Positions 18,821 to 29,513 of a DNA stretch of 64,000 nucleotides are shown here, one piece after another. The notes under the pieces are model-generated. The model did not search any database. It worked only from the letters and a program-made list of their open reading frames with translations, and was not told where the DNA came from. Position 1 is the stretch's first letter, and each line of letters opens with the position of its first letter. The DNA is from Acidobacteriota bacterium (GTDB taxonomy: Bacteria > Acidobacteriota > Terriglobia > Terriglobales > Acidobacteriaceae), in NCBI GenBank assembly GCA_021790995.1, contig JAJYFA010000003.1:1-64000 (forward strand), given 5' to 3'. Both the position numbers and the translations under genes were made by a program.

Positions 18821-19324
18821 TCAAATCCAAACGAAGGTCGCCCGGTCTTTATCCTTGCGCGCACGGCTGACGGGAAAGACCTGCCCGTGCATCACAATAT
18901 AGACACCGGGCGCGACCAGACGCGCGGCCAGCAGACTCTCGGTCAGGTTTTGCAGGCCGTCCGATCCCTCGAACCCGAGTGGCGTCATGGCTCCGGTCAG
19001 CACAATGGGAACCTTGAGTCCGGGAAACGATGCCTCAAGAAAACGGCCCGTCTCGACCATTGTGTCGGTTCCGTGCGAGATCACGATGGGCGCGCCCTCG
19101 GGCAGTAGCTCCGCCACGCGATCCCGCACCTGGGCGCGGTCCGTGTCCGTCATCTCCAGGCTGTCTTTGTTCATCAGGTGTTCGGCGTGGATTTCTGCGT
19201 CGGGCAGCCGCAGTATGTTGAGATAGCGGTCCAGCTTGGCGGCGCGATTTTCCACCACGCCGCGCTGTTCGGAGTAGACCTTTTCGATGGTCCCCCCCGT
19301 CGATAGCAGATAAAAGCGTTGCAT
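18821..19324 (-). CDS. Half-size asparaginase-domain protein
   Basis: A 167-residue protein matching only the N-terminal catalytic domain of L-asparaginase. Both active-site threonine loops are present: S8-T9-G-G-T12 (STGGTIE) and H84-G-T-D-T88 (HGTDTMVETG), plus PIVLTGAMTP. Full-length enzymes have about 330 residues; the C-terminal domain that completes the tetramer is missing and the frame ends naturally, so this is a short-form family rather than a truncation visible here. It may hydrolyse asparagine or another amide. It lies 27 bp downstream of galE on the same strand and may be cotranscribed. Confidence 0.75.
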   Translation of the reverse strand: MQRFYLLSTGGTIEKVYSEQRGVVENRAAKLDRYLNILRLPDAEIHAEHLMNKDSLEMTDTDRAQVRDRVAELLPEGAPIVISHGTDTMVETGRFLEASFPGLKVPIVLTGAMTPLGFEGSDGLQNLTESLLAARLVAPGVYIVMHGQVFPVSRARKDKDRATFVWI

Positions 19325-21064: not shown

Positions 21065-22105
21065 ATGTCAACGAGATATTCCCCAGGACAGACGAACTTT
21101 GGCCTCCTGCCCGAGCCGGAGGGGAGGTTGTCTTCCTTTGTCATCAGTTCGACGGTCAATATGGCAATTCTTGTCACTCTCGTCGCCACTGGAATGATGG
21201 CCAAGCACGTGATCCAGCAGCACTTTGAGATGACGGAGTTGATTGCCCCCAGCACGCCTCCTCCTCCGGAGCACATCAAGCAGCCGCCGCCACCGCGGTT
21301 GCCTCCACCGCCCGAGCAGCCAAAACTGGAGCTTCAGCCCCGCCAGATAGATCTGCCCAAACCGAAGCCGGCACCGAAGCCCATCCAGATGGAAGCCAAG
21401 CTGAATGTCCCGGCGATGCAGGCCAAGCCGCAGCAGATTACGCTGGCGCCGCAGCCGAAAGCCGCGTTTACTGCCGCCATGCCGGCACAGAACGACCGGG
21501 TCAAGGCCAGAGTGGGAGAGGTGCATCTGGGCGAGACCTTCGGGGTGACGCCTAATCCCAATGCGGCCCGCCCGGCGACGGTTGCGGCCATTGGCAATCC
21601 GTACGGCGGCATGAGAGGTCCGGCCGTTGCTCCGTATGGCAAGGTGGGATCGGCAGGCATCGGCAACGGAACCAGGGTTGGTTCCAACTCCGGCGTGGTT
21701 GGCCGGGTTGCGTCGGCGGGCATTCCGGGCGAAGCCGGCAGGACGAATGCAGGTTCGAATTACGGAAGAGTTGCTTCGGCCGGGATTCCTGCGGCCACCC
21801 AGGTTGCGGCCGCTCCCCGGCAGGTTTCGGCGCCGGTCTCAACCGATCTTGTGGTGCTTTCCAAACCGCCCGTACGGTACACGGCGGAGGCGAGGCAACT
21901 GAAGATTCAGGGCGACGTGATTCTGCGCGTTACGTTCATGGCTTCGGGCCAGGTGGTGGTTGACGGAGTGGTGCACGGGCTGGGTCACGGGCTCGATGAA
22001 GAGGCGCGCCGCGTGGCGCAGCAGATCCGTTTCCGTCCGGCGACACGTGACGGCCGTCCGGTCAGTGTCACGACGACTATTACGATAACCTTTCAATTGG
22101 CGTAG
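21065..22105 (+). CDS. TonB-like energy-transducing protein
   Basis: A 346-residue inner-membrane-anchored protein: cytoplasmic N-terminus, one transmembrane helix (about 24-46, SSTVNMAILVTLVATGMMA), a Pro/Lys-rich periplasmic spacer (STPPPPEHIKQPPPPRLPPP), a Gly/Ala/Ser linker, and a C-terminal TonB domain (KPPVRYTAEARQLKIQGDVIL, then VDGVVHGLGHGLDEEARRVAQQIRFRPAT). The linker carries three imperfect copies of G[KR]V[GA]SAGI[GP]. TonB domains transfer proton-motive energy to outer-membrane receptors. No ExbB/ExbD or receptor is adjacent. The ATG at 21065 has a GAGG-type site about 10 nt upstream. Confidence 0.85.
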   Translation: MSTRYSPGQTNFGLLPEPEGRLSSFVISSTVNMAILVTLVATGMMAKHVIQQHFEMTELIAPSTPPPPEHIKQPPPPRLPPPPEQPKLELQPRQIDLPKPKPAPKPIQMEAKLNVPAMQAKPQQITLAPQPKAAFTAAMPAQNDRVKARVGEVHLGETFGVTPNPNAARPATVAAIGNPYGGMRGPAVAPYGKVGSAGIGNGTRVGSNSGVVGRVASAGIPGEAGRTNAGSNYGRVASAGIPAATQVAAAPRQVSAPVSTDLVVLSKPPVRYTAEARQLKIQGDVILRVTFMASGQVVVDGVVHGLGHGLDEEARRVAQQIRFRPATRDGRPVSVTTTITITFQLA

Positions 22106-22207: not shown

Positions 22208-24049
22208 ATGAAGTTTCGGAAGATCCTCTTTGCCCTGCTGATCTTCAGCCTCAGCGCCGGCTTGGCATATGCAAAGAAGCAGCCTAAGTATGAGCAAGCC
22301 CGCCAGCTTACCCCAGAGCAGGCATCGCTGGTCCGGAGGGCTATCGCCCAGGAAAAGATCCTGATCAAGAACATCCAGCAGCGCACGCCGCTTGTGGAGA
22401 CCTACATTCAGGACACCCGGCCGGACACGAAGCTCTACGAGATCCCCGTCGCGGACCACTACATGCTCAGCCGCGTCGACTTCGGCAAGACCTTCTTCGA
22501 CAAGGTTTATACGCCGAAGCAGGTGGCAAGGCACGGCTTCTTCAAAGGCTCGATGGATGCCATTACTGGGTTGACCAAGGCGCTGCATCTCGATACGCAG
22601 TTCACCTACTCCGACACCGGGTTTATGGAGATGATGTTCGTCGACCCCACCGGCTTTGACCAGCAGCACTACGTCTTCAGCTTCGTCCGGCGCGAGTTTC
22701 TCGGCTCGGTGCGCACCTGGGTCTTCGATGTGCATCCCCGGCCGGAAATCAAGGGGATGGGCCGCTTCTACGGGCGCATCTGGATTGAGGACCAGGGCGG
22801 CAACGTGGTGCGCTTCAACGGCACCTACACCGGCCCCACGGATCCGGACTCCTCCAAGCATTATTTCCACTTCGACAGTTGGCGCATGAATCTGCAGCCC
22901 GGCATCTGGCTGCCCGTGGCCGTTTACGTGGAGGAGACACAGCGCACCGAGACCGACAAGAGCGTGGGTCTGAAGGCGCAGACTCACTTCTGGGGCTACT
23001 CGCTCAAGCTGCCCACGCGCGACAGCGAAAGCGTGAGCGTTACTGTGGACAACGCCGTGGACAAGAGCGACGACTCGCAGGATGTGAGTCCGCTGCAGGC
23101 CTCGCGCATGTGGATTACGCAGGCTGAGAACAACGTCATCGACCGCCTGGTCGAGGCCGGCCTCGTTGCGCCGTTTACTCCCGGCGGCTATGAGGACAAA
23201 GTCCTCGGTCAGATCGTCATCAACCTGGTGGTGCCGAACAACCTGGCCTTCACCGATCAGATCCATTGCCGCATCCTGCTCACCGACACACTGGAAGCCA
23301 CCACAGTGGGCAACACCATCCTCATCAGCAAGGGGCTGATCGACACGCTGCCCAACGAAGAATCGATCGCCTCGGTGATCGCCATGGAACTGGCGCACAT
23401 CGCCATGGGCCATCACATTGACACCCGCTACGCCTTTAACGATCGCCTGATGTTCCCGGACACGGCCACCTTCCAGCGCATCGACATGAACCATTCGGAC
23501 CTGGACAACACGACGGCTGCCAAGCGGGCGATGCAGTATCTCGGGAACTCCATGTACAAAGACAGGCTGGCCACCGCCGGCCTCTACTACAAGCAGCTTT
23601 CCGCGCGCGCCAAGGAGCTGAAGGCGCTTAATTCGCCCCGGCTGGGCGATTCGCTGCTCCAGTCCGACGGCACGCCGTGGCTGGCCGATCTGATGCACCA
23701 GGCGCCCGCAATCAACTGGGACGATTTGGGGCAGACGGCGGCCCTGCCGCTGGGCAGCTGGCTCAAGACCGATCCATGGGACGATACGGTGCACATGCTC
23801 AACGCGCGGCGTTACGCACCTATGAACGCCCGCGAAAAGATGCCGTTTGAGGTTACGCCGATCTTCTTCAAGCTGCAGCGCTACGAGGTGGCGGCCGTAA
23901 CTCCGCCAGCCGCAGCTCCGGCCAGCGGTGTTCAGCCGGCTGCGGCGCCTGACAATGCTCCGCCGGCACAGCCACCGGCGCAACCGCAGAACGGTCCTGC
24001 TCCGCAAGCCAATCTGCACCAGGGGGCTGCCGAAAATCCGCAGTCATAA
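22208..24049 (+). CDS. Degenerate M48-like metallopeptidase (MELAH in place of HELAH)
   Basis: A 613-residue exported protein with a clear signal peptide (KFRKILFALLIFSLSAGLAYA). The N-terminal half is a family-specific domain of unknown role. The C-terminal half matches M48 Zn-peptidases in the segment around GNTILISKGLIDTLPNEESIA and then AMELAHIAMGHHIDTRYAFND. In active enzymes the motif is HExxH; here residue 393 is Met, so one zinc-binding His is gone while E394 and H397 remain. A Pro/Ala-rich tail follows. The ATG at 22208 has AGGAG 6 nt upstream. It lies about 100 bp after the TonB-like gene. It may be a pseudoenzyme or use another ligand. Confidence 0.75.
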   Translation: MKFRKILFALLIFSLSAGLAYAKKQPKYEQARQLTPEQASLVRRAIAQEKILIKNIQQRTPLVETYIQDTRPDTKLYEIPVADHYMLSRVDFGKTFFDKVYTPKQVARHGFFKGSMDAITGLTKALHLDTQFTYSDTGFMEMMFVDPTGFDQQHYVFSFVRREFLGSVRTWVFDVHPRPEIKGMGRFYGRIWIEDQGGNVVRFNGTYTGPTDPDSSKHYFHFDSWRMNLQPGIWLPVAVYVEETQRTETDKSVGLKAQTHFWGYSLKLPTRDSESVSVTVDNAVDKSDDSQDVSPLQASRMWITQAENNVIDRLVEAGLVAPFTPGGYEDKVLGQIVINLVVPNNLAFTDQIHCRILLTDTLEATTVGNTILISKGLIDTLPNEESIASVIAMELAHIAMGHHIDTRYAFNDRLMFPDTATFQRIDMNHSDLDNTTAAKRAMQYLGNSMYKDRLATAGLYYKQLSARAKELKALNSPRLGDSLLQSDGTPWLADLMHQAPAINWDDLGQTAALPLGSWLKTDPWDDTVHMLNARRYAPMNAREKMPFEVTPIFFKLQRYEVAAVTPPAAAPASGVQPAAAPDNAPPAQPPAQPQNGPAPQANLHQGAAENPQS

Positions 24050-24179: not shown

Positions 24180-24731
24180 ATGAGACGTTCGATCCTCGCA
24201 TGTTTCTTGATTGCGCTCTTGCCGGCGGCAATCGTCTCCTCTCACGCCCAAACTGCGCCTTCGGCCTCGTCGCGCTCGTTTAATGTTTTTGCCGGAGGGC
24301 TATTTTCGGCCTTTCAGCCCGACTACATGAACACGGGATCTGCACAGACGAGCCCCAATCGCCTTTATGGCTTCGGAGCCTACGCGGATGCGCACTTCAG
24401 CCGCTGGGTGCAGATCGAAGCCGAAGCTCGCTGGCTGCACTTCAACCAGTTTGCCAGTGTCGATCAGAACACCTACTCGATCGGCCCGCGCGTTCCCGTG
24501 CTGACCTTCCACAAATTTGAGCCCTACGGCAAGTTTCTGGTTGGCTTCGGCAACGGCTCTTTTCTCACGTCGAACGCACTGGTGCTTACCTTCGGCGGCG
24601 GCGTGGACTACCGGTTGAGCCGGAAGTTCACGCTCCGCGCCTTCGACTTCGAGTACCAGCGGTGGAGTGTAGTACCCTCTACGATCTGGCCCTATGGCGT
24701 CAGTGCCGGCTTGAGCTACAAGGTGTTCTAG
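24180..24731 (+). CDS. Small outer-membrane beta-barrel protein
   Basis: A 183-residue protein with a signal peptide (RRSILACFLIALLPAAIVSSHAQ). The mature part starts SFNVFAGGLFSAFQPDY and alternates amphipathic strands (LYGFGAYADAHFSRWVQIEAEARW, FEPYGKFLVGFGNGSF, LVLTFGGGVDYRLSRKFTLR), ending with a strand GVSAGLSYKVF. This fits an OmpW/OprF-like 8-stranded barrel. The start at 24180 places the basic residues at the extreme N-terminus as expected for a signal peptide. Function unknown; it follows the M48-like gene by 130 bp on the same strand. Confidence 0.7.
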   Translation: MRRSILACFLIALLPAAIVSSHAQTAPSASSRSFNVFAGGLFSAFQPDYMNTGSAQTSPNRLYGFGAYADAHFSRWVQIEAEARWLHFNQFASVDQNTYSIGPRVPVLTFHKFEPYGKFLVGFGNGSFLTSNALVLTFGGGVDYRLSRKFTLRAFDFEYQRWSVVPSTIWPYGVSAGLSYKVF

Positions 24732-24908
24732 CCGCATGAAGACGGACCAGACAGGAGAGTAACGCCGGTCTCCTGGCCCACGCTTTGTGTATCAGCGTTG
24801 AACCTGGATCGAGCGAACTCTGCAAACCCCGCCCGCTCCGATGACGCGCCGTCCCGCGCTCACCTCCCCGCGTGCGATACTCACCATAACGCTCATTTCC
24901 AAACTCCA

Positions 24909-25619
24909 ATGATCTGGTCTCTGCTTTTTCTCGGCAACATGATCGTTCTGGGCATCCCTTCGGCCCTGCTTTTCATCCCCTGGTGCTGGCTCACGGGCAA
25001 CGTGCTGCCGCTCTACAAAGCCACGCGCTTCATGCTTTCGTCGAGCTGCCGCATCGCTGGCGTGCGCTTCCGGCCCGAGGGCCTCGACCGCATCCCGCGC
25101 GACCGCGCCTGCATCTTCATGTCGAACCACGTCTCCAATCTCGATCCGCCGGCGCTCGTCTCGCTGATTCCCGGCCGCACCTCGGCATTTATGAAGCGCG
25201 CGCTCATGAATCTGCCTGTTCTCGGCGCCGGCTTCCGTCAGGGCGAATTCATTGCTGTCGACCGCACCGGCAGCCGCGCCGACGCGCAGCGCAGCGTCGC
25301 CGATGCGCAACGCGTGCTCGCGAAAGGCGTTCACATCACTACGTTTGTCGAAGGCACGCGCTCGCCCGACGGCCGCATGTTGCCCTTCAAGAAAGGTCCG
25401 TTTTTCCTCGCCATGGCCTCCGGCGCTCCCTGCATCCCGGTTTCGATTTACGGTACCGAGGCGATTCTGGGTAAAGGCAGCAAGCGCATCCATCCCGGCG
25501 ACGCGCATGTCATCTTCCACGATCCCGTCGCCCCGGCCAACTACGCAACGCGCGAAGATCTGATGCAGGCCGTTCGCGCCGCCATTGCCAGCGGACTGCC
25601 GGAGTGGATGCGCAGTTAG
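24909..25619 (+). CDS. Lysophospholipid acyltransferase (PlsC type), copy 1
   Basis: A 236-residue 1-acylglycerol-3-phosphate acyltransferase-like protein that should add the second acyl chain in phospholipid synthesis or remodel lysolipids. An N-terminal membrane helix is followed by block I NHVSNLD (HX4D catalytic pair), block II (GEFIAVDR) and block III FVEGTRS, then the C-terminal CIPVSIYG segment. The frame is open further upstream, but the ATG at 24909 gives exactly the same length as the adjacent paralog at 25665 and starts at its first membrane helix, so I chose it. It is the first of a tandem pair. Confidence 0.88.
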   Translation: MIWSLLFLGNMIVLGIPSALLFIPWCWLTGNVLPLYKATRFMLSSSCRIAGVRFRPEGLDRIPRDRACIFMSNHVSNLDPPALVSLIPGRTSAFMKRALMNLPVLGAGFRQGEFIAVDRTGSRADAQRSVADAQRVLAKGVHITTFVEGTRSPDGRMLPFKKGPFFLAMASGAPCIPVSIYGTEAILGKGSKRIHPGDAHVIFHDPVAPANYATREDLMQAVRAAIASGLPEWMRS

Positions 25620-25664
25620 CCGCGTCAATGCCATACTCACCATGAACACTCGCACACACGCCGC

Positions 25665-26375
25665 ATGATCGTATCGCTTCTCGTTTTCGTCGTTATCGTA
25701 GCCCTCGCCCTGCCCGCGGCGCTGGTGCTGATTCCTTTCACGCTTTTGAGCGGTAACGTCAAGCCGCTCTATGCAACAGGCATCTGGATCGCCCGCGTTG
25801 GCATCCGCGCGGGTGGCATCCGCGTGCGTGTCGAAGGCCGCGAGAATGTGCCTGCCGGCCGCGCGTGCATCTTCATGGCCAACCACGTCTCAAACCTCGA
25901 CGCGCCCGCGCTCATCTCGAACCTCCCTGGCCGCACCTCGGTCTTTCTCAAACGTTCGCTCATGAAGCTGCCCATCCTGGGCTACGCGTTCAAGCTCGGC
26001 GAGTTCATCCCCGTCGACCGCGACGGCGACGCGGAAAGCGCGCGGCTCGCCGTCGCCGACGGCCTGCGCGTTCTCTCTGACGGTTTGCACATCACCACGT
26101 TTGTCGAGGGCAGGCGCTCGTCCGACGCGCGTCTACTGGCCTTCAAGAAAGGTCCGTTTTATCTCGCCAAAGACTCGGGTGCGCCCTGCATTCCCATCTC
26201 CATTTACGGAACGGAGCAGATTCTTCCGCGGGGAAGCTCGCGCATCCAGCCCGGCACGGCGCACGTCGTCTTCCATCCGCCGCTCGATCCGGCTAACTAC
26301 TCCACGCGCGAGGAGCTATCGGCGGCCGTCCGCGGCGCCATCGCCAGCGGCCTGCCGGAGTGGATGCGGGGATGA
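25665..26375 (+). CDS. Lysophospholipid acyltransferase (PlsC type), copy 2 with EGRR
   Basis: A 236-residue paralog of the preceding gene, starting 45 bp after it; both end with the same ASGLPEWMR pattern, so they arose by tandem duplication. Block I NHVSNLD is intact. Block III, EGTRS in copy 1, reads EGRRS here (DNA GAGGGCAGGCGC), a change in a motif that normally contacts the glycerol phosphate. This suggests altered acceptor specificity or reduced activity. The gene is convergent with the SPOR protein gene and only 8 bp separate their stop codons. Confidence 0.85.
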   Translation: MIVSLLVFVVIVALALPAALVLIPFTLLSGNVKPLYATGIWIARVGIRAGGIRVRVEGRENVPAGRACIFMANHVSNLDAPALISNLPGRTSVFLKRSLMKLPILGYAFKLGEFIPVDRDGDAESARLAVADGLRVLSDGLHITTFVEGRRSSDARLLAFKKGPFYLAKDSGAPCIPISIYGTEQILPRGSSRIQPGTAHVVFHPPLDPANYSTREELSAAVRGAIASGLPEWMRG

Positions 26376-27153: not shown

Positions 27154-27195
27154 TACAAGCTACAAGCTCCGAGCTGCCGGCTACAAGCTATTGGC
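27154..27195. repeat. Degenerate heptamer tandem array (STRR-like)
   Basis: Six 7-nt units in register: TACAAGC, TACAAGC, TCCGAGC, TGCCGGC, TACAAGC, TATTGGC. T at position 1 and GC at positions 6-7 are invariant. The array overlaps the slipin stop codon and extends into the 75-bp gap before the SPOR gene. It resembles the short tandemly repeated repetitive (STRR) sequences described in cyanobacteria. Confidence 0.75.
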
Positions 27196-27979
27196 TGCTC
27201 GTCTCCGTCTTGACCGCGCCCGACAGCTTGTTCAACAGCGTCATCATCTCCAGCGGCAGTGGGAAGACAATCGTGGTGTTCTTTTCCACGCCGATATCGG
27301 CCAGGGTCTGGAGATAGCGCAACTGCAAGGTCATGGGCTGGGTGGCCATCAGCGCCGCAGCGTCAACGAGCTTTTGCGCGGCAATAAACTCGCCTTCGGC
27401 GTGGATGATCTTCGACCGTTTTTCCCGCTCCGCCTCGGCCTGCTTGGCCATGGCGCGCAGCATCGACTCCGGCAGGTCGACCTGCTTGACTTCGACCGAG
27501 ACGACTTTGACGCCAAATGGCTCCGTGCGCTGGTCGATGATGGTTTGAATCCGCAGATTGAGCTTGTCGCGATGGCTTAACAACTCATCCAACTCCACCT
27601 CGCCCAGCACCGAGCGCAGAGTGGTCTGCGCCAGTTGCGAGGTCTGGTATACGTAGTTCGACACCTTGATCGCGGCCGCGTTCGGGTCCACCACGTAGAG
27701 CGTCACCACCGCGTTCACTTTGAGGGTGACGTTGTCACGAGTGATGATGTCCTGGGGCGGCACCTCCAGCACCTCCTGGCGCAGCGAGATGCGCACAATC
27801 TGGTCGATAGGCCGGAACACCAGAATGATGCCGGGGCCCTTGGCGACAGGCAGGGCCCGGCCTAGCCGGAAGATAACGCCGCGCTCGTACTCGCGGAGGA
27901 TCTTGATCGAGTTCAGCAGGTAGAGAACGACGATCGCAATGATAACCAGCATGGGTAGTGAAAGATCACCAATCGGCAT
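27188..27979 (-). CDS. Slipin (stomatin/SPFH-domain protein)
   Basis: A 263-residue SPFH/Band 7 protein with an N-terminal membrane helix ([18 protein letters not shown]), the stomatin core ([51 protein letters not shown]), and a C-terminal coiled-coil region ([23 protein letters not shown]). Slipins oligomerise in microdomains and pair with NfeD proteins, whose gene is just upstream. The ATG at 27979 has AAGGA 8 nt upstream; earlier starts would add a basic, non-conserved extension. The last codons lie in a heptamer repeat array. Confidence 0.9.
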
Positions 27980-28130
27980 GGGACGTTCCTTTCCACTCAG
28001 CAGGGATTGTACTCCAATGCGGCGCGAACTCATGAAAAGACCGGAAATGAGGTCTTTCGCTGTCTGCGGTGGGTTCGATGGCGGGTAGGCCTTTCATGAA
28101 CACAAAGAAACAGGCAGGATCGCACCATGC

Positions 28131-29513
28131 TCACCCCTGCACGGACCGGCTGATCTCTGATCCCTGACCCGTGATCCCTGTTTCCTGCGGCTCCACCCTG
28201 AGCAGCATCTCGTCATGACCAACCACGCGCAGCGTCGCGCCTGCGGCCACGGGCGCACTGGTCTCCGCGCGCCAGATCTCGCCCTCCACCAGCACGTGTC
28301 CCTGCGGAGCGAGAGCTTCCATCGCCGTTGCCGTTGCGCCCACCATGGCATCGGCGCCGGTTCGCACCTTGCGCCTGCGCGCCCGCACGGCCAGCCGCAC
28401 CAGAAACCATGTGATCCCGCCAAAGGCCACGCTCACGCTCAGCGCGACCCAGGGACTCACGCGCAACTGCGGAATGGGCGCGGCCACCAGCGTCAGGGTG
28501 CCGAAGGTCAGGCACACGATTCCCGCGATAGCCAGCGCGCCGTGTCCTCCCACCTTGGCCTCGAGAATCAGCAGCACCATCGCACCCACCAGCAGCATCA
28601 CCGCGGTGTAGCGAATCGGCAGCAGATTTAGCGCAAAGATCGCCAGCAGCACCATCAACGTGCCCAGCGCGCCCGGCACAATCGTTCCCGGGGAATTGAA
28701 TTCGAGATAGATCAGCAGGGCCCCACCCACCAGGAACAGCAGCGCGATGTTGGGATCGACGAGCCAGCCCAGCAGCTCATCGCGCAGCGTAGGCTTGATC
28801 AGCACGATGCGGGCGCCGGCCACGTGCAGTGTCGTGGTTGATCCGTCCATACGCGTCACCGTGCGTCCATCGATCGCCCTCAGCAACTCGGCATCGCTGT
28901 TGGCAATCAGATCGATCAGGTGCTCATCGAGCGCCTCCTCGGCCGTGTAGGAGTGCGACGACTTCTCGGCTGCCTGTGCCGCATCCGCATTCCGCCCGCG
29001 CTTGGTCACGTAGGAGCGCATGAAGGCTTCCGCGTCGTTTTCCACCTTCTGCATCTCGATGTCGCCGGGCTTGCCCATCTCGAAGACCACGTGCGCCGCG
29101 CCAGCCTCAGTGCCCGGAGCCATGGCCGCCACATCGGCCGACTCAAGAATGAAAAAACCCGCCGAGCCCGCGCGCGCTCCCGGCGGCGCCACGTAGACAA
29201 TCACCGGCACGCGCGAGCGCAGAATGGCGCCGACCATCTCGCGCATCGAGTCCAGCAGGCCGCCGGGCGTATTCATCTCGATCAGCAGTGCCTGCGCTCC
29301 ATCGGAGCTGGCGCGCGCCAGGGCCCTCGTCAGCTCGTCGGCGCTAACCGGCTGAATGGTGTCGTCCAAAACCAGCTTGTCGACAACTGGCTGCTGTGCC
29401 GGCGTGGATTGAGCGGCACGCGCCTGCGCGCAAATGCCCACTCCCAGCACCGTCCACAATCCCGCCGCAATCAGCCCGGCGCTCGTCCAATTCCTTTGCA
29501 TCGCCTGTCTCAT
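28131..29513 (-). CDS. nfeD: NfeD long form (ClpP-class serine protease plus OB domain)
   Basis: A 460-residue membrane protease of the NfeD1b type. A signal/TM segment is followed by a ClpP-like periplasmic domain with Ser117 in the context RAGSAGFFI and the MAPGTEAGAA loop, then four to five transmembrane helices (about 250-375) and a C-terminal OB-fold (LVEGEIWRAETSAPVAAGATLRVV). Related archaeal proteases cut stomatin C-termini; the catalytic Lys cannot be assigned with certainty. The ATG at 29513 has GAGG 7 nt upstream. The slipin gene follows 151 bp downstream, the classical pairing. The last 15-20 codons are encoded by a period-7 repeat. Confidence 0.9.
   Translation of the reverse strand: MRQAMQRNWTSAGLIAAGLWTVLGVGICAQARAAQSTPAQQPVVDKLVLDDTIQPVSADELTRALARASSDGAQALLIEMNTPGGLLDSMREMVGAILRSRVPVIVYVAPPGARAGSAGFFILESADVAAMAPGTEAGAAHVVFEMGKPGDIEMQKVENDAEAFMRSYVTKRGRNADAAQAAEKSSHSYTAEEALDEHLIDLIANSDAELLRAIDGRTVTRMDGSTTTLHVAGARIVLIKPTLRDELLGWLVDPNIALLFLVGGALLIYLEFNSPGTIVPGALGTLMVLLAIFALNLLPIRYTAVMLLVGAMVLLILEAKVGGHGALAIAGIVCLTFGTLTLVAAPIPQLRVSPWVALSVSVAFGGITWFLVRLAVRARRRKVRTGADAMVGATATAMEALAPQGHVLVEGEIWRAETSAPVAAGATLRVVGHDEMLLRVEPQETGITGQGSEISRSVQG
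28151..28192. repeat. Heptamer tandem array inside the nfeD 3' end
   Basis: Six units in register: TGATCTC, TGATCCC, TGACCCG, TGATCCC, TGTTTCC, TGCGGCT. TG at positions 1-2 is invariant and TGATCCC is the consensus. The array encodes the C-terminal residues of NfeD (around QETGITGQGSEISRS). It has the same period as the array at 27154 but a different unit. Confidence 0.75.

Follow-up and report, generated by a model that had tools for sequence, protein, structure and literature searches.

The window analysed here, i.e. the whole stretch of 64,000 nucleotides, encodes an exported two-domain protein of a soil bacterium (hereafter P0001), in which a LolA/RseB-like domain is followed by a BepA-like M48 domain with a dismantled metal centre. 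As judged from its sequence, P0001 is very probably catalytically inactive. Its metal site has been lost lineage-wide, yet the gene is strongly conserved beside a TonB gene; binding or guiding envelope proteins, not cutting them, is therefore its most likely role. On balance, we slightly favour P0001 being a periplasmic, non-proteolytic binder of envelope clients (i.e. a chaperone or carrier) that works with TonB. The features concerned are listed in Table 1.

Table 1. Features of the P0001 locus, with positions in the window
Feature	Position	Strand	Basis
TonB-family protein (TonB_C), conserved upstream partner	21065..22105	+	Pfam TonB_C, 52.4 bits
P0001, probable LolA-M48 pseudoprotease, coding sequence (613 aa)	22208..24049	+	matched in 56/60 relatives, mostly full orthologs
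Signal peptide MKFRKILFALLIFSLSAGLAYA, SPase I type, without lipobox Cys	22208..22273	+	sequence reading; helix 4-20 in model
LolA/RseB-like domain, residues ~36-262	22313..22993	+	Foldseek to LolA superfamily (3buu); hhalign
BepA-like M48 domain with probably dead metal site, residues 291-560 as modelled	23078..23887	+	AF2, Foldseek
Retained strand pair (predicted edge strand and its neighbour), residues 363-374, EATTVGNTILIS	23294..23329	+	model; clade alignment; BepA (PMC8423444)
MELAH (393-397) replacing HExxH; M393, first zinc ligand lost	23384..23398	+	sequence; hhalign; clade alignment
H429, clade-invariant (99/99), lineage-specific gain	23492..23494	+	clade alignment
N434, third zinc ligand lost (Glu of ExxAD; BepA E201)	23507..23509	+	hhalign; clade alignment
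R478, plug His lost (BepA H246)	23639..23641	+	hhalign; clade alignment
Outer-membrane beta-barrel protein (OMP_b-brl), downstream neighbour	24180..24731	+	Pfam; locus survey

Membership of P0001 in the M48 family is supported by Pfam, hhalign and Foldseek. The Peptidase_M48 match covers a 41-residue core only (residues 368-408; 24.6 bits against a cut-off of 20.3). The whole protein was modelled by AlphaFold2 with a pLDDT of 70 and its Foldseek matches are the LolA superfamily and BepA, while the M48 part modelled alone reaches 88.7. The latter model matches both 3C37, the top fold match (E 3.6e-5), and BepA (6ait) with a Foldseek probability of 1.00 at modest TM-scores (0.4-0.5). The M48 fold is thus predicted to be kept. 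The N-terminal domain matches 3buu (Foldseek probability 1.00), with a low TM-score because the query has two domains. The genome also encodes a standalone LolA_like protein, to which this domain aligns with an hhalign probability of 97.5%; Pfam LolA_like detects only one of 35 LolA-M48 family members (E 0.027). Pfam scans revealed no TPR domain, and the C-terminus is Pro/Ala-rich and modelled with low confidence. Nothing matched in a family-profile search against PDB sequences, a single-sequence search with P0001 gave marginal selecase (MJ1213) matches only, the NCBIfam scan returned M48 models below threshold only and PADLOC gave no match. Weak Pfam matches to DarP, eCIS_core and SprT-like models were judged to reflect chance or the common HExxH.

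We aligned the metal site by hhalign with a family profile, using as reference a canonical M48 protein that the same genome encodes and whose HExxH reads HEMSH. M393 (codon ATG, 23384-23386) corresponds to the first His of HExxH, N434 and A438 to the Glu and the Asp of ExxAD, respectively, and R478 to the plug His of HP. Zinc in BepA is held by H136, H140, E201 and H246 (PMC7950410); three of these four ligands are gone in P0001 and H397 alone is left, while the general base E394 is kept in most members. The HExxH motif, the Glu of ExxAD and the plug His of HPx4R (PMC7950410), which mark catalytic M48 proteins, are all absent. A preliminary description of this DNA had reported an exported protein carrying IAMELAHIAMGHHIDTRYAFND, with a Met in place of the first His and no other damage, and had proposed a possible pseudoprotease acting as chaperone or substrate binder. 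The frame, the motif and the signal peptide are present as described and the pseudoprotease proposal is well supported, but the damage extends to N434, A438 and R478, and a single lost ligand in an otherwise whole site is ruled out. With three ligands missing, an M393H change by itself is not expected to restore zinc binding.

The same state extends across the surrounding Acidobacteriaceae clade. P0001 was searched against 60 relatives (E <= 0.001), where the weakest of the 56 matches reach a related LolA-like protein only. His is missing at position 393 from all 81 Acidobacteriaceae sequences compared, namely that of the window and those of 80 named loci (Terracidiphilus gabretensis, Occallatibacter savannae and Acidicapsa dinghuensis among them); 74 of these have Glu and seven have Gln at position 394. 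In 99 distinct clade sequences, position 393 is Met (57), Phe (23), Leu (14) or another residue (V/I/Y/P) but never His, as compared with His in 52/52 relatives selected for an intact tetrad. The question raised earlier, whether orthologs carry His or Met, is answered in favour of a pseudoprotease, and loss of the first His in this clade is far beyond chance. Position 434 is Asn in 88 sequences and Asp in 11, and position 478 is Lys, Arg or others but never His. At position 394, Glu occurs in 79 and Gln in 20 sequences on several branches, a pattern of stepwise decay. The strand pair at residues 363-374 is conserved across active and inactive forms. For 25 ortholog pairs, dN/dS is 0.016-0.187 over residues 36-560, while the M48 part taken separately gives 0-0.142. 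The gene is thus under strong purifying selection and is not decaying, and constraint on its M48 part is about equal to that on its LolA part.

Some of the remaining residues are nearly invariant. H397 and H429 occur in all 99 clade sequences (the latter position being Arg in 42 of the 52 active relatives), H402 (23411-23413, + strand) occurs in 98, and position 433 is Asp or Glu. Together with the retention of E394, this could mean that the metal site was rebuilt, with H397, H429 and H402 (perhaps also D405 or D433) binding a metal in a redesigned peptidase or in a structural or sensing site. We regard this main alternative as unlikely: replacement of the catalytic Glu by Gln in 20 of 99 sequences and a hydrophobic, variable residue at position 393 do not fit a catalytic site that still works.

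The inactive state is best read as a loss from an active ancestor, because HExxH..ExxAD..H is kept by relatives in the rest of the class and, beyond it, in further classes of the phylum. In the class survey, the full HExxH..E tetrad is present in 52 of 190 distinct sequences, 43 of which also keep the plug His (without the Pro), and the six relatives drawn from the phylum's other classes are all intact. When the motif columns were left out of tree building, the inactive Acidobacteriaceae clade (37 rows) formed a single branch (SH-aLRT 100), with L182, an intact Acidobacteriaceae protein, next to it. The minimum number of changes on this tree is 17 for the whole-tetrad state and 13 for the first His alone; since the tree was made by a quick method, its root was not inferred and some of its branches are long, about a dozen or more losses is the safe reading. 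Of 34 other M48 genes from the class and the window's genome, taken for control, 30 have the full HExxH..ExxAD signature, although their selection by Pfam score biases this set towards intact sites.

Independently degenerate sites occur on other LolA-M48 branches, often with several paralogs per genome: QELAE (L214, L180 and L231), QELAD/QQLAQ (L178, L210 and L234), HGLAA/RGLAA (L067, L068, L051 and L052) and HELAR (L042 and L043). One genome with three copies has a divergent extra paralog (L054, G008:C30; 49% identity) with LELAH and no TonB neighbour. In the same genome as P0001, a 936-residue frame (L005, G000:C238) gives a weak M48 match (47 bits) and shows no HExxH-type motif by simple pattern; it is possibly a second pseudo-M48.

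Loss of the metal site on many branches would also be expected if catalysis were dispensable. Given the LolA fold of the N-terminal domain (Foldseek, hhalign), the LolA-like domain could be the working part, i.e. a TonB-tied lipoprotein or lipid carrier, with the M48 part serving as a rigid scaffold or dimerisation module. This is improbable in our view, as the M48 part is equally constrained and keeps its edge strand and cleft helix.

We also compared gene neighbourhoods. Of the 167 loci with sufficient flanking sequence, 157 have a TonB_C gene immediately upstream, active and inactive members alike, and in other classes TonB adjoins the LolA-M48 gene in five of six loci and lies downstream in the sixth. 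Because the TonB linkage is common to active members, the pathway predates the loss. Contact between P0001 and TonB is plausible from this gene adjacency, which is not the same as physical interaction. On the downstream side, an OMP_b-brl gene is the neighbour in 90 of the 97 inactive-clade loci versus 0 of 61 others, and this link may derive from one ancestral arrangement. Elsewhere in the window, a 167-residue protein (18821-19324, - strand) consists of an N-terminal asparaginase domain (PF00710) alone, and related sequences with 81-90% identity occupy the same place in several relatives. A tandem pair of mutually similar acyltransferase-like (PlsC type) genes lies at 24798-26375 (+ strand), and an SPFH/Band 7 gene adjoins an NfeD gene at 27188-29513 (- strand), a common membrane pair.

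Regulating active cousins is an established role of pseudopeptidases (PMC11266112), and among the M48 proteins encoded by the genome of P0001 at least four carry the full HExxH..ExxAD..HP signature. P0001 could accordingly be a regulatory decoy that captures the substrates of, or binds, these active proteases, which we consider distinctly improbable: no active LolA-M48 paralog was found in this genome, and the pathway shared with active members is older than the loss. Although the assembly is a 263-contig draft, a sequencing error, a pseudogene or an isolated mutation (the last having been named at the outset as fatal to the pseudoprotease reading, should close relatives carry His) can practically be dismissed, as the same state is found in 99 distinct sequences including isolates, the frame is open and dN/dS is well below 1.

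We retain the reading of P0001 as a non-proteolytic envelope binder. A role as chaperone or substrate binder is plausible by analogy with BepA and from the LolA-like domain and the TonB/OMP neighbourhood. P0001 would most likely (i) hold or guide outer-membrane proteins or lipidated chains in the periplasm; (ii) bind these substrates via the LolA-like domain together with the edge strand and cleft that its M48 fold has kept; and (iii) act jointly with the TonB protein encoded immediately upstream. The downstream beta-barrel may be one of its clients. More speculatively, LolA-M48 and TonB could form an envelope machine of Acidobacteriota whose proteolytic activity was turned off independently on many occasions, the cleft having been rebuilt in the Acidobacteriaceae form (H397, H402, H429 and K/R478), which would serve a dedicated outer-membrane barrel as an energised chaperone or carrier; we consider this possible but rather unlikely.

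How proteolysis and chaperone work are kept apart in M48 proteins is a question raised by BepA. The LolA-M48 family has repeatedly dispensed with the metal site while keeping its fold, its TonB partner and the predicted edge strand. Such repeated natural removal, with active sister lineages at hand, offers a direct test of M48 domains as non-proteolytic substrate binders. The family also suggests that a TonB-linked envelope factor, so far undescribed, is present throughout Acidobacteriota.

Among known systems, the closest parallel is BepA/YfgC (PDB 6AIT and 6SAR), both an M48 protease and a chaperone for LptD/BAM. P0001 shares with BepA the M48 fold, export and an edge strand beside the active-site helix, but has lost the equivalents of H136, E201 and H246; BepA has a C-terminal TPR domain, whereas P0001 has an N-terminal LolA-like domain and a TonB neighbour. 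The BepA edge strand adjoins the active site and is required for proteolysis and chaperone-like activity alike (PMC8423444), and residues 363-374 are, from their position, its probable counterpart. The protease-dead variant BepA(E137Q) fulfils the role of BepA only in part and can have a dominant-negative effect (PMC8423444, PMC7950410). Loss of proteolysis therefore does not by itself leave an M48 protein working as a chaperone. The best fold match of the M48 domain, 3C37 (Geobacter Q74D82, titled Zn-dependent peptidase), was solved as a single-domain chain, in contrast to two-domain P0001. The LolA/LolB/RseB/LprG fold (PDB 3BUU, 3M4W and 3MH9; Pfam LolA_like) matches residues ~36-262, but in P0001 it is fused to M48. 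The component folds, and pseudopeptidases as such, are already known. In the literature searched, with most subscription journals outside its scope, we found no description of a bacterial M48 pseudoprotease or TonB-M48 pair, nor of a LolA-M48 fusion with a TonB partner and recurrent lineage-wide metal-site loss; M48 goes unmentioned in the pseudometallopeptidase review (PMC11266112). Like the known pseudometallopeptidases (PMC11266112), P0001 combines ligand loss with a retained fold and sequence conservation; in contrast to them, the loss here occurs in bacteria, spans a whole lineage and recurs within a single family.
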